Source: a virus
Length of the DNA stretch: 23,700 bases
Virus record (IMG/VR): IMGVR_UViG_3300042868_000904
Location: 1 to 23,700 of that record
Strand: one strand, 5' to 3'
Positions 1-20,680 of this stretch are shown one piece after another. The notes beneath the pieces were generated by a model. It saw only the letters and a program-made list of their open reading frames with translations. It ran no database searches and had not been told where the DNA came from. Every line of letters begins with the position of its first letter. Within the stretch, counting starts at the first letter, position 1. Made by a program: the position numbers and the translations under genes.

Positions 1-47
1 CCGACTTAGTTGCACCATTCGGCACGACGATTCGTGTCGAAGTTTAA
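1..47 (+). CDS. 3' end of an upstream gene (partial)
   Basis: Frame 3 is open from the window edge and reads DLVAPFGTTIRVEV before a TAA at 45-47. The alternating hydrophobic and charged ending looks like a real beta-rich C-terminus. The stop codon lies inside the first arm of the A/T-rich repeat, exactly as the stop of the 87-aa gene lies in the second copy, which supports this frame. A hairpin with a 7-bp stem (21-27 with 32-38, one G-T pair) lies within it. Only 14 codons are visible, so no function can be given. Confidence 0.45.
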   Translation, partial: DLVAPFGTTIRVEV

Positions 48-69
48 AACTTTTAAGCTTAAAACTTTT
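44..69 (+). repeat. A/T-rich double repeat, copy 1
   Basis: Two copies of AAAACTTTT (46-54 and 61-69) are joined by AAGCTT, giving a 15-nt period. The whole is a perfect palindrome except for the two central C bases. It lies between the stop of the upstream gene and the Shine-Dalgarno GGAG (70-73) of the gene at 80. Related copies are at 705-730 and 2501-2525. Confidence 0.85.
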
Positions 70-79
70 GGAGAAAACC

Positions 80-448
80 ATGGGATATAGATCAGATGTG
101 CAGGCACTCATTTACCCTGCGAATGGTGACACTAACTTGTTGGAGTACGACAAACTCAAAACGCTAATGAACACCACGTTTAAAGATGTGTTCGAGGCGT
201 GGGGCGACGACTACTTCACATGGGATGACAAACATCGTGTGCTTAAGTTTGCTGCTAACGACATTAAATGGTATGCCGGTTACCCTGATGTGGATAGGTT
301 TACTGAGTTCTTAGCGCAAGTGCATGAGCTTGAGTACGAGTATGAGTTCATTCGTATTGGTGAGGATACTGATGACATTGAGGACGATAGCACAGGCGAC
401 GCACACGGTTTTCTATATGTATCACGTTCAATAGAGGTGGCATTTTGA
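80..448 (+). CDS. Conserved phage protein, MGYRSDV family, unknown function
   Basis: A 122-aa acidic protein. The ATG at 80 is chosen because GGAG at 70-73 lies six bases upstream; an in-frame TTG at 68 has no ribosome site. The opening MGYRSDV and the later KWYAGYPDVDRF and FIRIGEDTDDIE segments resemble a small protein family that I recognise from tailed-phage genomes but that has no assigned function. It has no signal peptide or membrane segment and is rich in aromatic and acidic residues, so it is probably a small soluble cytoplasmic protein. The stop overlaps the next start (TTGA), which indicates translational coupling. Confidence 0.85.
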   Translation: MGYRSDVQALIYPANGDTNLLEYDKLKTLMNTTFKDVFEAWGDDYFTWDDKHRVLKFAANDIKWYAGYPDVDRFTEFLAQVHELEYEYEFIRIGEDTDDIEDDSTGDAHGFLYVSRSIEVAF

Positions 449-708
449 AATTCAGACTAACTGTAAACGGCAACCAACTGCTGTTGGATATGCATCAACT
501 GGAAAGCGTTATTGACATACTGGCAACTACCGAGCAACTAACAGAGTCGCATGTGGGTGCTAACCAAGGCTCGCAAGGGTATCAGAACGCTTTTGTTCCT
601 GTCATTAAACCGGTCGTGCCTAACGACTTATTTCATGTGGGTGCAATCAACCAAGACTACATCGACACAATCAAACTGTCAATGAAACTAACCGAACAAA
701 CAACCTAA
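445..708 (+). CDS. Hypothetical phage protein, TTG start
   Basis: An 87-aa protein starting with TTG at 445, four bases inside the preceding gene, with the purine-rich AGAGGTGG upstream as ribosome site. It begins MKFRLTVNGNQLLL, a short amphipathic beta-strand pattern, and continues with a helix-like HQLESVIDIL and a polar, Gln/Asn-rich middle. I do not recognise the family. The rare start and TTGA overlap suggest translation coupled to the upstream gene. The stop TAA (706-708) is part of the A/T-rich repeat copy 2. Confidence 0.75.
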   Translation: MKFRLTVNGNQLLLDMHQLESVIDILATTEQLTESHVGANQGSQGYQNAFVPVIKPVVPNDLFHVGAINQDYIDTIKLSMKLTEQTT

Positions 709-730
709 AACTTTTAACCTTAAAACTTTT
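705..730 (+). repeat. A/T-rich double repeat, copy 2
   Basis: AAAACTTTT at 707-715 and 722-730 are joined by AACCTT (one base different from copy 1), keeping the 15-nt period. It fills the gap between the 87-aa gene and the ATG at 734. No Shine-Dalgarno sequence lies between the repeat and that ATG. Confidence 0.85.
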
Positions 731-733
731 ATC

Positions 734-1660
734 ATGAACTACTACACACTTGAAACACAAAAGCCTATTGCAGGTATCGCACGTTCCGCCATGATGGTGG
801 ACTTAAACATCGCAGTCTACTCGGGTCGCAAGCAAGACAAGAGTACGCAAGCCGAGGTCACCAATGCCAAGGGGTCAGGCTCCAAGAAAGCAGCATCGGT
901 GTACAAGAACTTGTTTGCTGAGTGCAAAGAGTTAGAAGCAATTACCAAGTTCCAAGCCCGTGCCCGTGCAGAGCATTACAAACTCACACTCCCATGGAAT
1001 GACCAAGGGGCAAGACTGTTGCCCACTGCAGCACTGCTTGACTATCAGAAAGTTATGGCTAAGTACAACACCGAGTTCAATCGTTTGGTTGATGCGTTCT
1101 TGGACAAGTACGAGACACTCGTAGCAGGGGCAGCGTTCCAACTTGGTACATTGTTTGATCGTGGCGAGTACCCAAGCAGGGGTAAGGTGGCTCAGCGTTT
1201 CCGCATGGAGACTTCGTTCACTCCCTTGCCTACTGGCGGTGACTTTAGGTTAGATGTGGAGAGCGAGGTACAACGCCAGTTGATCGCAGACTACGAAGCA
1301 AAGCTTGACTCTAAGATTAAAGCAGCGAACCAAGACTCATGGACTCGTTTGTATAACGCTATCAGTAAGTTGAGTGACCGCTTGACTGTCGATGAAGATG
1401 GCAAGAAGCGTACGTTCCACGACACAACGGTGACCAATGCCGTTGACTTGTGTGAGTTGTTGCAAGTCATGAACATTACCAACGATCCTGCGTTGACGAA
1501 AGCTTCACGTAAGCTTGAGGAGGTATTGTCTGGGGTAACACCTAAAGAATTGCGGGAAGAAGATAGCACTCGTGCTTTAACCAAAATCAAGGTGGATGAA
1601 ATCCTTGGCGCTTTTGATTGGGGGATACATGATGGGGAAAGTGAAGGCTCTGGTAACTGA
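734..1660 (+). CDS. DUF3150-like phage protein
   Basis: A 308-aa soluble protein. Residues 24-33 read LNIAVYSGRK and residues 49-52 GSKK, followed by a long helical region with many charged residues. This short motif, then Gly-Ser-Lys-Lys, then a helical body matches my memory of DUF3150 proteins from phages and plasmids, whose function is unknown and which can sit near MoxR-type ATPases. No such ATPase is in the window. The ATG at 734 has no Shine-Dalgarno sequence and follows repeat copy 2 directly. The domain call is from pattern memory only. Confidence 0.7.
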   Translation: MNYYTLETQKPIAGIARSAMMVDLNIAVYSGRKQDKSTQAEVTNAKGSGSKKAASVYKNLFAECKELEAITKFQARARAEHYKLTLPWNDQGARLLPTAALLDYQKVMAKYNTEFNRLVDAFLDKYETLVAGAAFQLGTLFDRGEYPSRGKVAQRFRMETSFTPLPTGGDFRLDVESEVQRQLIADYEAKLDSKIKAANQDSWTRLYNAISKLSDRLTVDEDGKKRTFHDTTVTNAVDLCELLQVMNITNDPALTKASRKLEEVLSGVTPKELREEDSTRALTKIKVDEILGAFDWGIHDGESEGSGN

Positions 1661-1991
1661 GATCATGGAAGTAGCGGACAGGCATGGGCGAGCGAAGTCA
1701 GACGCCCTTCGAATGCTAGAACATAAACTTGGATACCACAAAGACAATCCTATGTACGAATGTAGATACGAAGAACGTGGACTTGACTACACGCTAAAGA
1801 AGTGGCGTGACGGACACGAGGAAGCATCTCGTGGACTGGTGACAGACCTACCTGATTGGCTAGAGAGAATCAGGGATGTGGCAACGGTGGGTGGGCATCT
1901 CAAGCGGGTGATGGTGCCTCCCCCTGACAACATCGTATGGTTCACTATTGACGACGATGGAAATTTAATTAACTTTATGGAGCTTCGATGA
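1629..1991 (+). CDS. Hypothetical phage protein
   Basis: A 120-aa protein starting at tandem ATGs (1629 or 1632), both preceded by a G-rich ribosome site at about 1619-1624. A longer reading from 1596 adds residues that only shadow the preceding gene. The protein overlaps the DUF3150-like gene by 32 bases. It opens with a helical, charged region (EIMEVADRHGRAKSDALRML) and has an acidic beta-like end (NIVWFTIDDDGNLINFMEL). I do not recognise the family. Its stop overlaps the next start as ATGA. Confidence 0.75.
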   Translation: MMGKVKALVTEIMEVADRHGRAKSDALRMLEHKLGYHKDNPMYECRYEERGLDYTLKKWRDGHEEASRGLVTDLPDWLERIRDVATVGGHLKRVMVPPPDNIVWFTIDDDGNLINFMELR

Positions 1992-2161
1992 ACTATGACA
2001 ACTTAACCGATGAGGAACTAATCCGTTTTGCCGATGGGCATTCGGGGTTAATCAAAGTCTTATCTGAAAGGTTGGAGATGCGTTTGCGTGACATGGAGGA
2101 TTTATCACGCACCATGCCCGACCCGAAACAACTTAACCTATTTGAGGATGACGATGCCTGA
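1988..2161 (+). CDS. Small acidic protein, 57 aa
   Basis: A 57-aa gene starting at ATG 1988 in an ATGA overlap with the preceding stop and ending at TGA 2159-2161, which overlaps the next start at 2154. It begins MNYDNLTDEELIRFADG, a helical acidic opening common in small phage proteins, and ends with an acidic tail (NLFEDDDA). It fills a 160-base stretch that would otherwise be empty. The tight spacing on both sides is the main support. Function unknown. Confidence 0.75.
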   Translation: MNYDNLTDEELIRFADGHSGLIKVLSERLEMRLRDMEDLSRTMPDPKQLNLFEDDDA

Positions 2162-2693
2162 CATACAAACAGAAATGCAAAAGATATTGCAAGCTTGGGA
2201 CCAACCCGAAACAACTGAAACAACTAAGGAAACAACCGTGTTTAAACCTACAAACAACGTAACACAAGCGACTTTTAACTTTATCCGTGACAACTCCGGC
2301 TGCGCTCGGCACGATGCAATCCGACTGCTCGTACAGAAAGGGCATAAGAAATCATCTGTGTCCTCTCTGATTGGGCAGATGCTACGCCAAGGGCATATCT
2401 GGAAAGATAGCGATGGATTGCTACGCCCCAATGGTAAAGAATACACACCCATCAAGTCGTCTAAGACCATAGCTAACCGAGAAAAAAAGCTGAAGAAACC
2501 CAAAACTTTTAAGCTTAAAACTTCTATGCCAAGTCAAGAAGCGCAGCCTGACTATTTAGAGCAAGCCAAACGAGCAATCATTGGCAAGCCAGTACGTTCA
2601 AAGATTCAGACCATCTTGGATGACATTAGTTTGAGTGACGCACATGAGTTGTATCGTGAACTGCACACATACTTCGGTGGCTTAGGTAAATGA
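2154..2693 (+). CDS. Winged-helix-like phage protein
   Basis: A 179-aa basic protein. ATG 2154 is chosen because GAGG at 2144-2147 lies six bases before it. Residues 35-100 have a winged-helix pattern: a first helix (TFNFIRDNSG), a second (RHDAIRLLVQKG), a recognition-like helix (SSVSSLIGQMLRQGHI) and a wing (WKDSDGLLRPNG). This suggests DNA binding, perhaps regulation of phage genes. A Lys-rich linker encoded by repeat copy 3 (KTFKLKT) joins it to a 55-residue helical C-terminus. The C-terminus begins with an in-frame ATG at 2526 and could be a separate or formerly separate product. Confidence 0.75.
   Translation: MPDIQTEMQKILQAWDQPETTETTKETTVFKPTNNVTQATFNFIRDNSGCARHDAIRLLVQKGHKKSSVSSLIGQMLRQGHIWKDSDGLLRPNGKEYTPIKSSKTIANREKKLKKPKTFKLKTSMPSQEAQPDYLEQAKRAIIGKPVRSKIQTILDDISLSDAHELYRELHTYFGGLGK
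2501..2525 (+). repeat. A/T-rich double repeat, copy 3 (inside a gene)
   Basis: AAAACTTTT at 2502-2510, AAGCTT, then AAAACTTCT at 2517-2525 (one mismatch). It is translated within the winged-helix-like gene as KTFKLKT and is followed at once by an in-frame ATG at 2526. Its period and layout match copies 1 and 2. Confidence 0.85.
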
Positions 2694-2884
2694 AAGCTAA
2701 AGCCATACTAGAGTTTGAATACCCCGACGATGAGGATGCGTTACTGTTCGCATTGAAGGGGCAAGCTATGTATAAGGCGTTGGCAAGTATCAAGATGGTT
2801 ATGTCTGCACCTTATACGAAGGCTGAGATGGTCAGCCAAATCAAAACTGTACTCAACGAAATCTTTGAGGAGTTGGGAGAATGA
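2690..2884 (+). CDS. Small conserved phage protein, 64 aa
   Basis: A 64-aa protein that starts in an ATGA overlap with the preceding gene. The opening MKAKAILEFEYPDDEDAL followed by a short helix and A-L-K-G-Q-A-M-Y resembles a widespread small phage family (beta strand, acidic turn, then about 40 helical residues) that has no known function. The C-terminus is helical and acidic (EIFEELGE). The stop is overlapped by the next start. Family recognition is from memory and gives no biochemical role. Confidence 0.8.
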   Translation: MKAKAILEFEYPDDEDALLFALKGQAMYKALASIKMVMSAPYTKAEMVSQIKTVLNEIFEELGE

Positions 2885-3534
2885 CTAAGATATGCACATG
2901 CTGTAAACAAGAGAAGCCCTTAACAGAATTCACTCGTCGTAAGTATGCGTATAAGGGAGTCGAGCGGTGGGGGCACAAGTCTTATTGCAAGCCATGCCAC
3001 ACGTTAAGCAATAAGATTGCTCGTGAAGCTAACTTAGAAAAAGCTCGTGCTCGTGAAAAAGAATTGCGAGAGCAACGCAAACTTAACATGACACCCGAGC
3101 AGAAAGAAGAATTGCGACTTAAGTTTGTTGCGTGGAATACGGCGTGGCGTAAAGCCAACCCTGACAGAGTCAAGGCAACAAAGCTTCGCCGTCGTGATAA
3201 AGAGCTTGTGTACAAACGCAACCGATATCAACTGAAAATAGACGAGCTTCGTGCCAAGTGCCGTGAGTACAGTCAACTACATAGAGAGGAGATTAGTGAA
3301 CGACAAAGACGGAACCATCAAAAGCCTGAAGTGCGGGAAAGGTTACGCGCTTATCAACAAGCACGACGGCCACAAGACCGAATAACAGCGCGAACAAAAA
3401 TTCGCAATCTAGATACCAACTACATCAAGTTGATAATCCGAAAAAACCTTGGGTTGCCTGCACGTATGCAATCCAAAAGTTTAATTGAAACACAAAGACT
3501 TATTGTCCAAATCAAACGAGAGGTTAGAAAATGA
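2881..3534 (+). CDS. Zinc-ribbon, HNH-associated phage protein
   Basis: A 217-aa very basic protein beginning with a zinc-ribbon motif: C5-x2-C8 and C36-x2-C39, with His32 and His40 near. This N-terminus is typical of phage HNH or endonuclease VII-type proteins. The middle (about 45-165) is a long Arg/Lys/Glu-rich helix, probably coiled coil. The end (LDTNYIKLIIRKNLGLPA, then LIETQRLIVQIKREV) matches a C-terminal module that I recognise in many phage HNH-related proteins. I see no HNH catalytic His-Asn-His set, so it may bind DNA without cutting it, or be a decayed homing-type protein. ATGA overlaps on both sides place it in the operon. Confidence 0.75.
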   Translation: MTKICTCCKQEKPLTEFTRRKYAYKGVERWGHKSYCKPCHTLSNKIAREANLEKARAREKELREQRKLNMTPEQKEELRLKFVAWNTAWRKANPDRVKATKLRRRDKELVYKRNRYQLKIDELRAKCREYSQLHREEISERQRRNHQKPEVRERLRAYQQARRPQDRITARTKIRNLDTNYIKLIIRKNLGLPARMQSKSLIETQRLIVQIKREVRK

Positions 3535-3743
3535 AAAACGTTGAAGAACTACGCGTCCAACTTGCATCAGTATTTATGGGCCTGCGAGATGGCAGTGTCA
3601 AACACACCGATGCAGCCGAACTTGCAAACCTTGCAGGTAAGATGATTAACTCCGCAAAAGGTCAGATAGAGTACTACGCTCTGCGTAAAGAGACACCATA
3701 CATTCCGTTCTTGGAATCATCCGCAGATGAAGCCCACGGCTAA
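3531..3743 (+). CDS. Small conserved phage protein, 70 aa
   Basis: A 70-aa helical protein starting in an ATGA overlap. It reads MKNVEELRVQLASVF, then HTDAAELANLAGKMINSAKGQIEYYALRK and a short PFLE tail. This two-helix pattern with an NLAGKMINSAK core and YYALRKE-P-I-P-FLE ending is one that I recognise in small phage proteins near zinc-ribbon or replication genes. No function is known. The last 17 bases overlap the next gene. Confidence 0.85.
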   Translation: MKNVEELRVQLASVFMGLRDGSVKHTDAAELANLAGKMINSAKGQIEYYALRKETPYIPFLESSADEAHG

Positions 3744-10316: not shown

Positions 10317-11207
10317 ATGAGTAACATGACACTTTTCAAATCCGGTTCCGTTATCCCTGACTATTTACGTGAGGCTTCTGACGCTACTACCCGTGACATT
10401 GCAGGTAGCTCTGGCGGTAAGCAAATCTCTATCAAGGGCGGTGTGTGGCGTATGGTCGTAGGCGGTGAAGAAGTCGCCAAGAACGAAGAACGCGCCATGA
10501 ACTTCGTGGTGATTGCATCCGGCAAGGGTGTGACACGTACGTTCTATGCAGACAAATACGAAGAAGGCAAGGACATTAAACCTGCCTGCTGGTCTGCTGA
10601 AGGCGTAGTGCCCAACGAAGAAGTGACTAACCCACAAAGTAAGTCATGCGCTACCTGCCCTCAGAACATCGAAGGCTCTGGTGATGGTAAGGCTCGTGCC
10701 TGCCGTTACAGCAAGCGTTTGGCTGTGGCTTTGGAGAACGACATTGGTGGCAACATCTACCGCTTGTCAGTCCCTGCCAAGTCATACTTCGGTCGTGCTG
10801 AAGGTGAGAAGATGCCACTGCAAGCGTTTGGTAAGTTCTTGTCAGGACATGGTATCCCGATTACAGGCATTGTGACCGAAGCTCGCTTCGACACTGCCGA
10901 AGCAGTGCCCGTGTTGAAGTTCCGTGCTGTACGCCCCTTGTCGAAAGAAGAGTGGGAACTGGGTAAAGCACAGAGCCAAACCGAAGACGCTCGTCAAGCT
11001 ATCGAGTTGAAGATGGTTCCATCTAAAGCCGAAGGCATGCCTGCGTTACCACAGTCGTTCAAGGAAGCCCCTGCCATTGCTGAGAAAGCGGAAGCCGTGG
11101 CTGAGCCAGTGAAACGTGCCCCTGCCAAAGCAAAGCCTGAGGCTCCTGCAGCAGCAAAGAACGTATCTGACATTTTGAGTGACTGGGCTACTGACGAAGA
11201 TGCGTAA
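10317..11207 (+). CDS. Putative single-stranded DNA-binding protein
   Basis: A 296-aa protein with AGGA upstream of ATG 10317. The core (about 35-215) is beta-rich and contains four cysteines (C91, C111, C114, C129) spaced like a zinc site. Residues 240-285 are an Ala/Pro/Lys-rich linker, and the last residues (DILSDWATDEDA) are acidic, as in the C-terminal tails of SSB proteins that recruit partners. The position between the polymerase cluster and primase-helicase, behind a strong promoter, fits an abundant ssDNA-binding protein. The call rests on architecture and context; I see no definite OB-fold motif. Confidence 0.6.
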   Translation: MSNMTLFKSGSVIPDYLREASDATTRDIAGSSGGKQISIKGGVWRMVVGGEEVAKNEERAMNFVVIASGKGVTRTFYADKYEEGKDIKPACWSAEGVVPNEEVTNPQSKSCATCPQNIEGSGDGKARACRYSKRLAVALENDIGGNIYRLSVPAKSYFGRAEGEKMPLQAFGKFLSGHGIPITGIVTEARFDTAEAVPVLKFRAVRPLSKEEWELGKAQSQTEDARQAIELKMVPSKAEGMPALPQSFKEAPAIAEKAEAVAEPVKRAPAKAKPEAPAAAKNVSDILSDWATDEDA

Positions 11208-11448
11208 TAGACCACGGGGGCATGACACCCTTTTCATTCAGAAAGTTGAAGACGCAGACCAGAAGCCGATTGTTATGCAGTTGGCTGATGTTTGTATCAA
11301 CAAAGGTACACCAATTACCGAGATAGCGCAGATGTTTGGCGTGACTCGTGCGAGTGTGTACAACTGGCTGACTGGTAAATCGGTGCCACGCGCTCGTCAT
11401 CAGGCAGCAATGCCTAAAGTTATTGCACGTCTTTCAAAACGTAAGTAA
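11200..11448 (+). CDS. Small helix-turn-helix DNA-binding protein
   Basis: An 82-aa basic protein starting at ATG 11200, eight bases inside the preceding gene, with no strong ribosome site, so it is probably coupled. Residues 39-60 (ITEIAQMFGVTRASVYNWLTGK) are a clear helix-turn-helix resembling the XRE or Cro type. It may repress or activate phage genes; the operator-like palindrome at 9784 in the promoter of its own operon would be a natural autoregulatory target, but that is inference. The operon ends just after it at the terminator. Confidence 0.82.
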   Translation: MRNRPRGHDTLFIQKVEDADQKPIVMQLADVCINKGTPITEIAQMFGVTRASVYNWLTGKSVPRARHQAAMPKVIARLSKRK

Positions 11449-14359: not shown

Positions 14360-14603
14360 ACCGCCCAAGCCAAAGCCAAAGCTATCGGACAACATGAGAG
14401 TACTCACCCTTTACGGGGTTGAGTATTTTCTCCATTGGGAACGGCTTGTAGTTGGTAGTTCGTTCTTCTTGCCAACCACTGCAACACCTGTGCAGGTACG
14501 AGATGCACTCCTACCGGCCACTAGGTTTCTTAAAATTAAAATAGAAGTACGCGCCCGTTGTGAGTACGGGCGGTACGGAACTCGTGTGTGGCGAGTCTAT
14601 TAG
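14310..14603 (+). CDS. Small phage protein with basic Pro/Lys-rich N-terminus, TTG start
   Basis: A 97-aa protein. TTG at 14310 has GGAG (14300-14303) six bases before it, inside the primase-helicase gene; this adds a Lys/Arg/Pro-rich arm (KLPAVKPPKPKPK). A shorter start at ATG 14394 has no ribosome site and would give 69 aa. The rest reads RVLTLYGVEYFLHWERL, then GSSFFLPTTATP, then a closing GTRVWRVY, a pattern I know from phage proteins of unknown role. The stop overlaps the convergent minus-strand gene by 4 bp. Confidence 0.7.
   Translation: MASTKRRLRKRKLPAVKPPKPKPKLSDNMRVLTLYGVEYFLHWERLVVGSSFFLPTTATPVQVRDALLPATRFLKIKIEVRARCEYGRYGTRVWRVY
14531..14576 (-). terminator. Hairpin terminator for the minus-strand virion operon
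   Basis: CGCCCGT (14552-14558) pairs with ACGGGCG (14566-14572), extended by outer GTAC/GTAC pairs (14547-14550, 14573-14576) with one bulged G. On the minus strand the hairpin is followed by T-rich sequence (complement of 14531-14546). It lies 24 bases past the stop of the minus-strand 2026-aa gene, inside the convergent plus-strand gene. Confidence 0.6.
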
Positions 14604-17600
14604 CGTTGCTCTTTGCGTAACTCGGTTTTAGCTTCACGCAACCAGTTTGTCAACTCAACTTCCATCTTCTTGATTTCTTCAAGTTCTTTTTCGCGGTCTT
14701 CTTTGCTCATGTCCGCAGCACCATCGGGGCTGTTCAAGAACTTGCGGTAAGCACGAGTGCGCTCCAGTTGTTCAAGCGTAGAGTTAATACCGCTTTCTAA
14801 CGCTAGCTCCATCTGATGCGATTCAGCATAAGCTTCAGCCCGTGCAATGTCGGTCTTCATCAACTGACGCAAAGTGTTGTTTGCTTTACCAACTTTCTCA
14901 CGCTCGTCGTAGAACTCAGTCAATCTGCGAGTGCCAACTGGGTCATACAGGTAGTTGCTTAGCAACGCATACTTGTGCAGCGGACGATCAACCCTAGAAG
15001 GATTTAACAGACTGTCCGTCATCATCGTCACCAATGCTGCCGTAGAACCAAAGTATCCGCTGAGCATGTTGTCAATCTGAATTGGAGATACGGCATCAAC
15101 TCCAATCACGTCACGGCTAAAGTTAGAAATGGCTTGTGCCAACTCAGATGTTTTAGACGTTACACGCATGCTGGGGTCTTGCTGCTTTTGGTAGATACCT
15201 TCCAGTTCGCGCCCTGTGAAGAACGAGTAGTTTGTCCACGCTTCAATCAAAGGCTTGACGGCTTGTGGGATTGGCACAGTGCGCCCAATGTATTGCTCCG
15301 CCATATACGCTGCAGCGGAACGTATGGCTTCAAGGGCTGTCTGTTCTTCTGGCGTGCCAGAGCGACGCAAGTACTCTATTACTGTCTCGGGGATAACTTT
15401 AAAGAGTGCGCCCAACTCGCCCGGCACAGGAATCTTGTATCCACCGGGGAGAATCCAGTTGCTGTTACGGGTACGCAAGTCCATGTCTTGATAGTCTTCG
15501 TCGTCACCTGACATCAACGCATACATGGCGCTAAGCATTGCCACAGTACCGGCACGGCTCCAGAACAACTGACGCGCCTGCGCACGACCAACAGAGGAGC
15601 TTGAGTCTTTACCTGACGCTGCACGATACAGCACATCCATACCCTGCATGTACGCGTTAAAGAACGGAATAGTTGCGGTGCCAACTGCAATGATCTCACT
15701 AGCGCCACGGCGACGGAAGTTAATAAACTCACGGGCACGAGACTGCGCCAACAACTGGTCTTTGTTGTTCTCTATCATCGTCTGGTCGTAGATTGCTTTA
15801 CGAACCGCCAAGTCAGATGCACGGGTAATGCCGTCAAGTCTATGCAATAAATTACCTAGCAGTGAAGAGCCAGCAACAGTACGTTCACGATACCCCAAGT
15901 CTTTTAGTACAGATATTGCAGGCTTGCCAGCTTCAAAGTCATACTCACCAGTCAGTCCCAGTGCGCCAAACTCTTTGACAATCGGATGTTGGATGCCACG
16001 AATCTCAGCCCACGCAAGCGAGCCAAAGTTAGCCAGTGTCATACGCAGTAACGCAGTGGGGCTTTTTACACCAGACGTTAGCATCGCACGTTGCACGTCA
16101 TCGGTTACCTGCTTCAGAGCAAACGGTGGCAGTAGTGTTACTGACTTACGCAAGATGTTAGAGAAAGTACCCAGTGTGCGCATGATTGCCATCTTGGGTG
16201 GGTTAAGGTCTTGGAATGCAGCTACGTCATAAGTCGATGGCAACTCCCAATACCTAAGCTCACCGTTGACGTACGCTTTGGCGCTTCTGTTTTCTGTGCC
16301 GGGCATACGAGCAGGTGCTTTTGTAAACCCTAGTTCTTGCAATCCAGTTAAGGTTTGCACACGGGCATCGTTGTTCATAACTTGCCCAACCATCCAGCCC
16401 ATTGTGTTTAGGTAGTTCTCAAACACGTTGCCAACGGGACGCTTGAACGAGCCAACCAACTCTGGGTCTTTAGTCAATGCCAGTGGTGAGCGACCGGTTG
16501 TCTTCTTAACTGTAGAAAACTTATCTGTAAAGTCCTCGATACGATCAAACGGCACATAACCAACAACGGACTTCCATTCGGCAGCGGTTTCTTTGGATAG
16601 CCTTCCGACCTCAACCATCTTGTCAATCAGGGCAAGACGTGGCTTGTCCATAGCTTCGCTCATCTGAGCAAACACAGGGTCCGAGTTGTATTCAGCAACC
16701 AGTACGGCACGGTCTCTGTCTGTCAGGTGCTTGGGGAAGTCTGGATTAACTTTAAGTACTTCATCCAAACGTTTGGCTTCCAGTACGCGACTTGCAAACT
16801 GTTCGGCTTCTTGGTTAGTTCGTCCGGTCTTTGCACCCCATGCGTAGATGAGTGGGAACACATCAACAGGTGCGCCTTCGCCTTTGCCAACAGTGCGGTA
16901 CAAGCCAGTGTCTTTATCTTTAACCAACGTACCGTTTTGGAAATACTCTGCCAGTATTTTGCTGTAGTCTTGTGCCTGACGATACAGGCCCATCGGGTTG
17001 ATTTTGCCAAGACTGTTGCGCACTGCGCCATTAAACGTACGGCTAAACTTTTCCTCAATGGCAGCAGCAGAATCTACGGCAGCTACGCGGAACTTAACGC
17101 CCGCGCTTGGGTCGCCTGTATTCTGCATGCCAAAGACCATCTGTTTGACGCTACGCTCATCTAGTGGCGTCAGGGGGCCTAGACCAGTCACAACGTCTTG
17201 TGCTGTGTATGTAGATGAAAGTTGCGCCCGGGTGGATGGCTTTGCAATTTCGTCTTGGCCGGTTAGCCAAAGCTTGGCGTCGGCTGGACCCATAGCATCC
17301 AAAAATGCAGCAACAGATTTAGCTGGTGGGTATTTGCGTCCGGTTACCACGGCAACCAGATCGCGCATCATCTGCGCAACTTTAGAGAAGAACTTTTCAG
17401 TAACGGTTAATGGCTTCTCAGACGTAGTTGCCCAACGAGAAACGTTGTCGGCAAACCATTCACTAAAACTCTTCCAGTACGGAGTCATCTGCTCTGCGGT
17501 TTTACCTTCAGGCACTGACATCATTTGAGTTTCAGCAGTCTCACGATTGCGCAGCATTTGAACTAGCTCACGCCCAGTTTTACCTTTGGTTGACGCAAGC

Positions 17601-20600
17601 CATTCGTCATACTCTTTCCGTATTTTGGCTTTAGTTTCAGGTGCGGCATTGTCGTATGCAATAGATTGAATTGAATGACCCAACTCATGCGAAATAACTT
17701 CTAAAGTTTTGGCTTCAGATTGGCCAAGATTGAATGAAATGTAGAAGTCGCGCTTGTTAGGACCGTATACACGGTTAGACCCTTCTTCTCCGGCGTCACT
17801 ACCGGCAGTTTTTGCAGACGCGTAGTCTTTATACAACTTGTATTTTTCCGTCGCACCGTCGCTACGCATGTCGTCTGGGGTAACTAGAAAGATTCGAACA
17901 TCACCAAGTCCCAAATCTTGCATCAGCCCACGCAGGTAATCTGCGTAGCGTTGATCTACTGAGTCTGACTTCACAACATTGGTTGTGGCTCCAGTAAACG
18001 GACCGTCGGGGTTCTTACTAAACTTCTTGCTTTCTTCAAACACTGCCTTAGCGCGCTCGGCAATTAGCTTGGCTTTTTGATCAGGAGTAAACAAGTTACC
18101 GATATAAGATTCAATGTCAAACTGGGTATACCTACCGTTTTTGGCCATGCCAAGATAAACATACTGTCCGTAGGCATTGTGGGTACGTACTAAACTAACG
18201 TCGCCATCTGAATAAACAGATTGGAATAATGGGCGGTCGTACTTATCAGTCCACGATTCTGTTTTCTTGGCGCTTTCATCAGGTGCCACACGTCCAACAG
18301 CCTTGGCAGAAGCCCTGCCTTCGCGAGTTTCTTCGGCTTTGGCTTGTAACTCCCTACCAAACGACGATGGGCCACTGATGTCAAAAGGAGACCTCGGCTT
18401 TTCTTCTCTGGCCGCTGGAGTTTCCCGTTCAACTTTTTCCGCAGGTTTTGCAGTGGGCGTTACTTTTGCAGGTTGTGAGACTTGAGTCTTTGGAGCTTCT
18501 TTTTGCTTACGTTCCAATTCTTCCAAACGGCGTTTGAAATCTTCAGCTTCCGCTTTACGGGCAGCTTCCTCGTCTACAGTTTCAGTAGCGACAGCAGGAG
18601 CCGGTGCTTTAGTCTCTTTGGGAGGGGTAGTCGTAGCAGTCGGCTTAGCAGTTGTCTTGGGTCCCTTAGTAGTCGTGGTAGTGGCAGCAGGACTAGGAGC
18701 AGCAGTAGTAGTTGTAGGCGCATTTTTGGCTTTACGTTCAGTTTGGTCAAGCGCATCCCACTCAGTTTTCTTCTGCGCTATTTGATTTGTAAACGCATCC
18801 CACTTAGCACGGGCTGGAGATTTAACGGCGGGTATACGGCCTGCTTTAGTTAGCAGTGCTTGCTGTTCAGTTTGTAAAGCGCGAATCTCATCTTGGACTT
18901 GGTCAGACGTACGCGCAGCGGGGGTTGTTACTGCAGGGGGCTGTGTTCTTTGAGGTGCAGTTCCCTCGCTAACAGGCTGTCCAGCAGGTGCCAATCCGAG
19001 TCCGTCAGGTGTTTCAGATGTTCCGGTGGGGGCGGGAACTCCGGCTCCGGGTTGTACCACGTCGGTTCCGGCAGGCTTACTAGATACTCCCACGCTTGGC
19101 TCACCTCCTCCGAGGTCAAGCTCGCCTTGAGGCTGATCCGTTTTGGTAGTGGTCGGGACATTTGGTTTCTCCTCAAAGGCTGTAGGTTGTGGCGCTATCA
19201 ACGCTTTTAATACCTCAGCGCGTGCGCCTTTATTGTTAATCAGGTTGGGTTCACGTTGAACAAGGGCTTGGAGTTCCTCAACAGTTTTACCTAATACATT
19301 GTCTTGCACCCATTGTTTGGACGTGCGTAATGGGAGTCCAATAGCGTCAATATCGGCCTGAGTAATGCCTGTCACTACTGGCTCGACCACTGCAGGCTTT
19401 GCTTTCTTGGCAGCACGTTCTGCTTTGATAAGTTCTTCGGCTTGCTGTTGCCCTGCAGTAGCTTCATCGTACGACGCCATCTGCTCCGTTAATTCAGCAA
19501 TGCGTGTTCTAGCTTCAGCAGTCCTTGGCCCCGCCCTAAGCGCTTCGCGTTCGGTAGCTAAGTCGTTGTAATCACGTTGAAAATCCAAACCAAGCCCAAG
19601 CTGTTCGCCTTGCTGCGCTTCTAGTTTTGTTTTGAGTTCATCAAGTTGCGCACGAACTTCTGGTGTCTGATCTTGTGTTTGTAAGCGGTCACGTTCCGCA
19701 ACCATCTCAGGATATGTTTCGGGTTTGGGTGCAAGTTCTTGTTTAGTCTCTGGTATTTTTTGACCCATTTCCTTACGAGTAAACAAAGTGCCCTGCTTAC
19801 CTACAGGCGCATCCTCACGCAGTTTGGCACCGGGAACTATCTCGGGTTCTGGTTGGGGTTCTGGCTTAGGTGCTGGTGGAGTAGCTGACCCTTTTGCACG
19901 GCGACCTAATGCTAAGTCCATCAAACCTTGAACAATGGCACCGGTAGCTCCACCATACGCGGCCTGTTCCCCCAAGCCTTCAATTAACGCTTGCTCGGGT
20001 TTGTAGATACCTTTGGCGATCATGTTCTGCGCTAAACCTGAAGCAGTTTCTTGCGCGGCTTCTTCACCACCAGCGAGCAACGCTCGTTTAATCATTTGTA
20101 CAGCGGATGCTGTAGCTGCTTCAGGAATACGAGACAGAATACGGAAAGGGGCGAAGGCTTCCAATGCGCCGGGGAGCGTGCCCAGTGCCGTGGCTGTTCC
20201 ACGTTGGTCAGAAGTAGCGTCTTCGGCTTCTGCACGAGTACGCGCTTCACCGGCTCCAGCACCAACACCAAGACCTACGGCTGCGGCGCGTCCAGCCAAA
20301 CCTAACGGACCGGCAAGAAGGAACGGGGCGGTTGAGCCAATAGCCTCACCTAATTTACGGGGGATAGAGTCTTCGTATCCCGCTGCGGCTTTAAATGGTT
20401 CCTTGGCAGAAGTGGCTACCGATGCGATTTTTTCGCGGGCAGCTTTCTCCATCTGTTCTGGCAAGAGCGCAGACGCGCCTGTTGCAGCGCTTTCCACAAG
20501 GCCAACTGCGCCGGGGGCCAACCCTTTAAATAGTTCCTTAGTGCCCCCCAGAAAGGTGCGTTCTTGAGGTGCGGCAGATTGAGCGACTAACCGTTTAACC

Positions 20601-20680
20601 GTTGCCTGAATTACGCTTGGGTCTGTGCCATCAGGGAATTCAAGGATTCGACCATCGGCCAGTTGCGCTTCAATCGCCAT
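14600..20680 (-). CDS. Giant polyvalent virion protein with gluzincin-type protease and LPD38-like domain
   Basis: A 2026-aa protein. The start ATG at 20680 has AGGTG upstream and follows the previous stop by 8 bases. Residues 1-35 (AQLADGRILEFPDGTDPSVI) are a short module common in phage virion proteins. Residues about 50-260 hold Gly/Ala-rich hydrophobic segments. Residues about 300-850 are coiled-coil and Thr/Pro/Ala-rich linkers. H998-E-L-G-H1002, with E1074 in SEWFAD, is a zinc metallopeptidase site. Residues about 1510-1810 resemble the LPD38 domain (FINFRRRG, PFFNAYMQGMD). Such polyvalent proteins are thought to be packaged and injected with the DNA. No lytic transglycosylase motif was seen. 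It is the last gene of the minus-strand operon. Confidence 0.88.
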   Translation of the reverse strand: MAIEAQLADGRILEFPDGTDPSVIQATVKRLVAQSAAPQERTFLGGTKELFKGLAPGAVGLVESAATGASALLPEQMEKAAREKIASVATSAKEPFKAAAGYEDSIPRKLGEAIGSTAPFLLAGPLGLAGRAAAVGLGVGAGAGEARTRAEAEDATSDQRGTATALGTLPGALEAFAPFRILSRIPEAATASAVQMIKRALLAGGEEAAQETASGLAQNMIAKGIYKPEQALIEGLGEQAAYGGATGAIVQGLMDLALGRRAKGSATPPAPKPEPQPEPEIVPGAKLREDAPVGKQGTLFTRKEMGQKIPETKQELAPKPETYPEMVAERDRLQTQDQTPEVRAQLDELKTKLEAQQGEQLGLGLDFQRDYNDLATEREALRAGPRTAEARTRIAELTEQMASYDEATAGQQQAEELIKAERAAKKAKPAVVEPVVTGITQADIDAIGLPLRTSKQWVQDNVLGKTVEELQALVQREPNLINNKGARAEVLKALIAPQPTAFEEKPNVPTTTKTDQPQGELDLGGGEPSVGVSSKPAGTDVVQPGAGVPAPTGTSETPDGLGLAPAGQPVSEGTAPQRTQPPAVTTPAARTSDQVQDEIRALQTEQQALLTKAGRIPAVKSPARAKWDAFTNQIAQKKTEWDALDQTERKAKNAPTTTTAAPSPAATTTTTKGPKTTAKPTATTTPPKETKAPAPAVATETVDEEAARKAEAEDFKRRLEELERKQKEAPKTQVSQPAKVTPTAKPAEKVERETPAAREEKPRSPFDISGPSSFGRELQAKAEETREGRASAKAVGRVAPDESAKKTESWTDKYDRPLFQSVYSDGDVSLVRTHNAYGQYVYLGMAKNGRYTQFDIESYIGNLFTPDQKAKLIAERAKAVFEESKKFSKNPDGPFTGATTNVVKSDSVDQRYADYLRGLMQDLGLGDVRIFLVTPDDMRSDGATEKYKLYKDYASAKTAGSDAGEEGSNRVYGPNKRDFYISFNLGQSEAKTLEVISHELGHSIQSIAYDNAAPETKAKIRKEYDEWLASTKGKTGRELVQMLRNRETAETQMMSVPEGKTAEQMTPYWKSFSEWFADNVSRWATTSEKPLTVTEKFFSKVAQMMRDLVAVVTGRKYPPAKSVAAFLDAMGPADAKLWLTGQDEIAKPSTRAQLSSTYTAQDVVTGLGPLTPLDERSVKQMVFGMQNTGDPSAGVKFRVAAVDSAAAIEEKFSRTFNGAVRNSLGKINPMGLYRQAQDYSKILAEYFQNGTLVKDKDTGLYRTVGKGEGAPVDVFPLIYAWGAKTGRTNQEAEQFASRVLEAKRLDEVLKVNPDFPKHLTDRDRAVLVAEYNSDPVFAQMSEAMDKPRLALIDKMVEVGRLSKETAAEWKSVVGYVPFDRIEDFTDKFSTVKKTTGRSPLALTKDPELVGSFKRPVGNVFENYLNTMGWMVGQVMNNDARVQTLTGLQELGFTKAPARMPGTENRSAKAYVNGELRYWELPSTYDVAAFQDLNPPKMAIMRTLGTFSNILRKSVTLLPPFALKQVTDDVQRAMLTSGVKSPTALLRMTLANFGSLAWAEIRGIQHPIVKEFGALGLTGEYDFEAGKPAISVLKDLGYRERTVAGSSLLGNLLHRLDGITRASDLAVRKAIYDQTMIENNKDQLLAQSRAREFINFRRRGASEIIAVGTATIPFFNAYMQGMDVLYRAASGKDSSSSVGRAQARQLFWSRAGTVAMLSAMYALMSGDDEDYQDMDLRTRNSNWILPGGYKIPVPGELGALFKVIPETVIEYLRRSGTPEEQTALEAIRSAAAYMAEQYIGRTVPIPQAVKPLIEAWTNYSFFTGRELEGIYQKQQDPSMRVTSKTSELAQAISNFSRDVIGVDAVSPIQIDNMLSGYFGSTAALVTMMTDSLLNPSRVDRPLHKYALLSNYLYDPVGTRRLTEFYDEREKVGKANNTLRQLMKTDIARAEAYAESHQMELALESGINSTLEQLERTRAYRKFLNSPDGAADMSKEDREKELEEIKKMEVELTNWLREAKTELRKEQR

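Follow-up and report, generated by a model that had tools for sequence, protein, structure and literature searches.

The DNA analysed here, referred to as the window, is the IMG/VR virus record IMGVR_UViG_3300042868_000904, which is complete at 23.7 kb and forms one contig. Near its left end, three copies of an A/T-rich repeat, AAAACTTTTAAGCTTAAAACTTTT, lie among early genes. Comparison with related viruses indicates that these repeats are very probably binding sites of a phage regulator. The genes and repeats concerned are as follows.

1..47, + strand: 3′ end of the upstream early gene, orthologue of a gene for a DUF2201-type putative metallopeptidase/VWA protein in relatives
46..69, no strand assigned: repeat copy 1, 14-bp core TTTTAAGCTTAAAA at 51-64, flanks AAAC/CTTT
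80..448, + strand: early gene after copy 1, 122 amino acids (aa)
707..730, no strand assigned: repeat copy 2, core TTTTAACCTTAAAA at 712-725
734..1660, + strand: early gene after copy 2, 308 aa
2154..2693, + strand: early gene containing copy 3, 179 aa
2502..2525, no strand assigned: repeat copy 3, core TTTTAAGCTTAAAA at 2507-2520, inside the open reading frame (ORF) 2154-2693, where it encodes KTFKLKTS

Copy 1 matches AAAACTTTTAAGCTTAAAACTTTT without mismatches and the other two copies with one mismatch each, in agreement with a first-pass annotation of this DNA. That annotation had found no other copy by eye. Indeed, no further match with up to three mismatches is present elsewhere in the window, and 100 dinucleotide shuffles of it yielded none, so that the three copies are not due to chance. 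As had also been described, copies 1 and 2 overlap the TAA stop codons upstream of them (45-47 and 706-708). Copy 1 is placed between the stop codon of the upstream gene and a GGAG ribosome-binding site, copy 2 between the stop codon of gene 445-708 and the ATG at 734. The annotation had placed every copy directly before an ATG. This holds for copies 1 and 2, which are followed by the gene starts at 80 and 734; the ATG that follows copy 3, at 2526, belongs to the interior of ORF 2154-2693, in frame with it, and relatives do not keep it (KTSM here, KTSG/K/I/N/T/E elsewhere). Therefore only copies 1 and 2 precede genes.

A search with gene 734-1660 as the query retrieved 74 related viral loci. 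Upstream of the orthologues of genes 734-1660 and 80-448 these loci carry an inverted repeat of a different sequence, the two arms of which covary: TTATAA-CC-TTATAA, TTCTAA-CC-TTAGAA, TCTTAA-CC-TTAAGA and TTTTAA-GC-TTAAAA are examples. The position of copy 1 is occupied in more than 15 relatives, with other arm spellings, and copy 2 is kept with a genome-specific spelling upstream of the orthologues of gene 734-1660. A profile of 113 junction sites reads AAAS-TTnTAA-SS-TTAnAA-STTT, about 22 bp, and the conserved unit is the near-palindrome AAAS-NNNTAA-SS-TTANNN-STTT. The repeat had first been read as a palindromic double repeat with a 15-nt period. The inverted repeat stands, but the direct double repeat was rejected: the period arises from the arms TTTTAA/TTAAAA and flanks AAAC/CTTT of the window phage and vanishes in other spellings. 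The core is a near-perfect palindrome, while the flanking base is biased to C..C in 93 of the 113 junction sites, which could come from the context of stop codon and Shine-Dalgarno (SD) sequence. At L084:6547-6568 and L100:4320-4341 overlapping tandem sites with an 8-bp period (TTATAAAGTTATAACCTTATAA) were observed, so that two dimers could bind side by side.

In most relatives whose early region was sufficiently covered, searches of whole contigs detected about 7-13 sites, clustered in one early region of ~10 kb; in G004 and G007, two relatives of ~65 kb, no site was present in the 77 kb read outside that region. It had been asked whether the motif in relatives always lies before early genes. 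Its copies are confined to the early region and occur at gene junctions, but some lie inside genes: of 212 classified sites, 113 lie at stop/start junctions, in the gap that separates a stop codon from the ribosome-binding site, and the others are within genes or in longer non-coding leaders, as judged from our own, approximate gene calls. Five spellings of the arm were found across genomes (TTATAA, TTCTAA, TCTTAA, TTTTAA and a mixed A/C form), with essentially one spelling per genome and nearly all sites perfect palindromes (9/9, 11/11, 12/12, 13/13 and so on). When three syntenic sites were compared, 45 of the 55 within-genome comparisons showed the same arm, whereas permuted genomes gave 15.4 +/- 3.1 (maximum 29). 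Thus the sites change together and are not inherited site by site. Related palindromes are found in more distant relatives: RTCTAA..TTAGAY in G022, G028 and G029, TTCTAA with a 3-nt spacer in L146/G042, and TTTTAA with a spacer of 3 or 4 nt in L140, L181 and L062/G027.

The gene holding copy 3 follows the same rule. Its site is kept in relatives and tracks the spelling of each genome, mixed-spelling genomes being the exceptions. The coding copy reads AAAACTTTTAAGCTTAAAACTTC (KTFKLKTS) in the window, AAAACTTCTAAGGTTAGAACTTC (KTSKVRTS) in L007, AAAGTTATAAGGTTATAACTTC (KSYKVITS) in L010 and L014, and AAAACTCTTAAGGTTAAGACTTC (KTLKVKTS) in L028; DNA symmetry is retained at the expense of amino-acid changes. 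By eye, a second in-gene site, in G018 and G014, likewise tracks spelling (TDLQTLNLKTIDEA or TDLQTSNLRTIDEA). The second in-gene site recorded at L098:8106 and in L094 (reverse-oriented, 14916) has the peptide TDLQTLNLKTIDEA or TDLQTSNLRTIDEA, again according to spelling.

These data bear on two explanations in which the repeats are mobile or recombining DNA. A spreading mini-element, one of the first-pass suggestions, does not fit: the copies are at the same gene junctions in relatives, their spelling changes in concert and no empty-site pattern was seen. In L006 (reverse strand, 9833-9600), copy 1 is separated from the gene 80-448 orthologue by an additional small gene. Related genes fill the same junction in several more relatives, and gene content thus varies at site-bearing junctions. 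This would suit sequences for homologous recombination, or cassette boundaries for shuffling of early genes, with uniform spelling produced by gene conversion instead of recognition by a protein. However, the cores are merely 14-24 bp and the flanks differ, so that conversion tracts would be tiny; one copy is retained in phase inside a gene; and spelling also tracks helix residues among divergent versions of a protein, P178, described below. We give this explanation the least credence of those considered here.

P178 is an all-helical protein of ~178 aa whose gene heads the early operon of relatives (e.g. L105:3316-3852). The gene order there is divergently transcribed terminase genes, P178 to their right, a gene for a Mor-like helix-turn-helix (HTH) protein and small genes. 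A profile search found 66 P178 loci, and 32 non-redundant homologues with a readable spelling were used for comparison. Several of the relatives with distant palindromes encode distant homologues, according to the same kind of search. P178 is likely to be the cognate regulator, judging from its covariation with the sites. Its identity is 0.78 between genomes of the same spelling and 0.46 between those of different spelling, the largest gap among the gene families of the region. Residues 85, 87, 88, 89, 91 and 92 track spelling: TTTTAA is accompanied by AASYQS-like strings, TTATAA by A(Q/R)QY(A/Q)Q, TCTTAA by GVSYAC, GVSYAG or ATSYGC, TTCTAA by VKTYQG, VKSYQN, ATQYQT or GRNYAT, and the mixed A/C form by GAQYQ(S/T). 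None of these strings is paired with two spellings among the 32 homologues. For pairs of proteins 30-45% identical elsewhere, identity over the six residues is 0.59 if the spelling is shared but 0.21 if it differs, and this residual effect was reached in 0 of 5000 permutations. The six positions were picked after the data had been inspected, but residues 84-88 still rank first when 8-residue windows are scanned without bias over the whole protein. An AF2 model built from 29 sequences is all-helical (mean pLDDT 86), with helices 64-78 and 84-100 in helix-turn-helix order, and the variable residues begin the second helix.

Other proteins were considered as readers of the sites. The first-pass annotation had named the proteins at 3727 and 11200 as possible binders. 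The products of 3727 (ribbon-helix-helix-like by eye) and 11179-11448 (HTH) are near-identical across genomes of different spelling and were rejected as determinants of specificity. The Mor-like HTH protein beside P178 (L105:4878-5366) could read the sites instead of P178: it has weak matches to Mor and late-activator profiles, its gene is flanked by sites, and its overall identity correlates with spelling in a larger set (0.55 versus 0.40). Yet its copies in G007 (TTATAA) and G030 (TTCTAA) are 94% identical, with identical HTH, G013 and G010 have different alleles although both use TCTTAA, and no specificity window was found within the HTH. We regard this assignment as very improbable.

Several observations weigh against P178 as the regulator, as does the correlation just given for its neighbour. 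The operon head lies to the left of the window start and the P178 gene is not in the window record, so that a P178 matching the TTTTAA of the window phage is a prediction. Relatives of P178 were found in none of Pfam, PHROGs, NCBIfam, PDB sequences and PDB folds, and DNA binding is therefore unsupported by homology; a PDB fold search with two P178 models gave nothing better than E ~0.6. Searches of isolated phages and of bacterial and archaeal genomes likewise yielded no P178. In a window scan of 13 genomes, which was non-discriminating in contrast to that of the 32 homologues, the helix window did not come out on top, and control proteins show covariation peaks too, mostly at their ends. Part of the correlation is explained by shared ancestry, since P178 is linked to the sites. 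The rule of one spelling per genome is also imperfect: one arm position is either A or C in each of G012, G014, G015, G016 and G019, and the three sites of G002 include two spellings. Finally, no match to integrase, ParA or resolvase (PF00589, PF13614, PF00239) was found in contigs up to 68 kb, possibly incomplete, so that a classical lysogenic repressor role is without support.

The P178 promoters listed all have TTGACA and a plausible -10. The P178 loci listed also carry a site of matching spelling whose centre lies ~20 bp before TTGACA and which is weakened, one of its arms being degenerate (core TAAGGTTA or similar). This position suggests autoregulation of P178, the sign of which cannot be read from sequence. 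The site is in a divergent region from which the late genes are read to the left, and a role in the early-late switch is possible. Strong conservation also marks a G-rich stretch (GGGGCGGTGGGGTC) just to the left of this site, within the divergent early/late region of L117-L178.

A site at this place would also be usable by an activator, and upstream of the Mor-like HTH gene one copy has a possible -10 close by (TATAAT, TACACT or TATACT, with variable spacing). The sites could then be activator or promoter elements starting each downstream early gene, and a phage promoter had been among the first proposals. At the junctions, however, the copies have no conserved -10 downstream and only the SD carries information; an ATG follows most of them after 3-16 nt, usually within ~15 nt; one copy is within a gene; and the -35 of the P178 promoter is already near-consensus. 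A -10 or -35 element at the junctions was rejected for want of a downstream -10, TTCTAA and TCTTAA also being unlike TATAAT. We consider an activator or promoter role unlikely.

Alternatively, the palindromes might act at the RNA level: small hairpins in the mRNA, ahead of the ribosome-binding sites, would govern translation or the processing of the transcript. Most junction copies are between stop codon and Shine-Dalgarno sequence, ~15 nt before the ATG, the arms covary as base pairs do, and the copy-1 leader of the window has a folding energy of -8.0 kcal/mol, although its minimum free energy structure differs from the simple palindrome hairpin. Against this, a 2-nt spacer is impossible as an RNA loop, leaving a stem of only 4-5 A/U pairs. 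Copy 2 gives just -1.3 kcal/mol, TTATAA and TCTTAA leaders do not form the palindrome, and the TTCTAA..TTATAA sites of mixed genomes break one pair. Structure alone needs no common spelling across the copies of a genome, and no Rfam match was found for the element. The site upstream of the -35 of the P178 promoter is outside that transcript. This explanation is quite improbable. The earlier suggestion of a translation enhancer fails on the same grounds: one copy is intragenic, one class lies upstream of a -35 and off the transcript, and the hairpins are weak or are not the predicted fold.

Taken as a whole, the observations are best explained, with fair confidence, if the repeats are operators of the phage-encoded P178 regulator. 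The sites, their positions, spellings and covariation are the demonstrated part. A regulator binding site had been one of the first-pass options, and it gains from the multiple copies, the genome-specific spelling and the covariation with a predicted recognition helix. In the proposed mechanism the regulator would bind AAAS-NNNTAA-SS-TTANNN-STTT as a symmetric dimer or as two subunits, and the variable residues with which the second HTH helix of P178 begins would read the variable arm bases. Each phage would have a spelling of its own, the ~10 sites and P178 changing together. As P178 accumulates, it would fill the junction sites of the early genes as well as the one ahead of its own promoter, and its occupancy would damp or block early transcription in the manner of a stoperator. 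Repression or a roadblock could be the main effect of binding, although we stop just short of favouring this part. Phages of the same spelling would cross-silence each other, which would reward new spellings. More tentatively, P178 may represent a structurally novel family of phage DNA-binding proteins that runs operon-wide palindromic operators in apparently non-integrating phages, where diversifying selection would switch the shared spelling and create incompatibility groups, with superinfection exclusion without lysogeny.

The assignment of gene 1..47 is based on synteny in L006 and L105 and on a Pfam match of the protein of a relative. The product of gene 80..448 has no match in PHROG or Pfam, and that of gene 734..1660 is a distant relative of a Synechococcus phage MinM2 protein annotated as DUF3150. 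Near this DUF3150-like gene, an AAA ATPase (phrog_1297) and the DUF2201-type putative metallopeptidase/VWA protein are encoded (L105:7690-10831 and window 1-47), which gives the early operon a MoxR/VWA-like set. An Endonuclease VII/HNH-like gene at 2881-3534 of the window is missing from the same junction in L006. On the opposite strand, at 14600-20680, a protein of 2026 aa that contains a large polyvalent protein domain (LPD38) is encoded alongside the structural genes.

These sites would represent a protein-DNA code readable from sequence in a family of uncultured phages, with five spellings (plus more distant ones) set against a handful of residues. The whole site set has been naturally replaced between phages whose other proteins are largely alike. 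How a regulator shifts specificity jointly with ~10 dispersed sites, one of them intragenic, becomes testable, as does the question whether lytic phages maintain immunity-like groups. It also assigns a likely, predicted function to P178, a protein family absent from the databases searched.

Among known systems, the promoter early stem-loop (PeSL) cassettes of T4-type phages carry an early promoter and are linked to module shuffling. Like the sites described here, they are repeated palindromic elements between small early-region genes; unlike them, they are not known to have a genome-specific spelling or a cognate protein. CI and Cro of the 434/lambda type bind two-fold symmetric operators of 14 bp, a few residues of the HTH recognition helix set their specificity, and they show immunity-type divergence. 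The symmetric 14-bp site and the specificity tied to few residues of a recognition helix, here predicted, are shared features, as would be divergence of the immunity type. In 434 and lambda, however, the operators form two short clusters at promoters, whereas single sites at many gene junctions are found here, and P178 has no match to the HTH_3/CI families.

The Nostoc cyanophages A-1 and N-1, with genomes of ~65 kb, have multi-copy intergenic motifs that differ between the two, for which stoperators were one suggested option (PMC4916379). Intergenic position, multiple copies, ~65-kb phage genomes and differences between relatives are common to both cases. The Nostoc motifs were described as asymmetric and no regulator was proposed, whereas here there are palindromes, a candidate regulator and many spellings.

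The closest working parallel is offered by the stoperators and Rep of Cluster A mycobacteriophages, but the palindromic sites are not members of that system. In L5, Bxb1 and Trixie the motif and the repressor Rep (gp71) diverge together, and binding stops elongation (PMC6550527, PMC9283540). Cluster A genomes have 20-30 stoperators, each an asymmetric site of 13-14 bp that is oriented with transcription and binds a monomer; the sites here are palindromic, number about 7-13 and occupy one early region. Cluster A phages are temperate (integrase or parABS), whereas no integrase or ParA was found here, and their repressor is Rep/gp71, whereas P178 is without a match to any described family. In both systems, many copies of one short site lie in and between genes, there is one cognate phage protein (here the candidate P178), the motif shifts with that protein among related phages, and a site lies near the promoter of the regulator itself (PMC6550527, PMC9283540).

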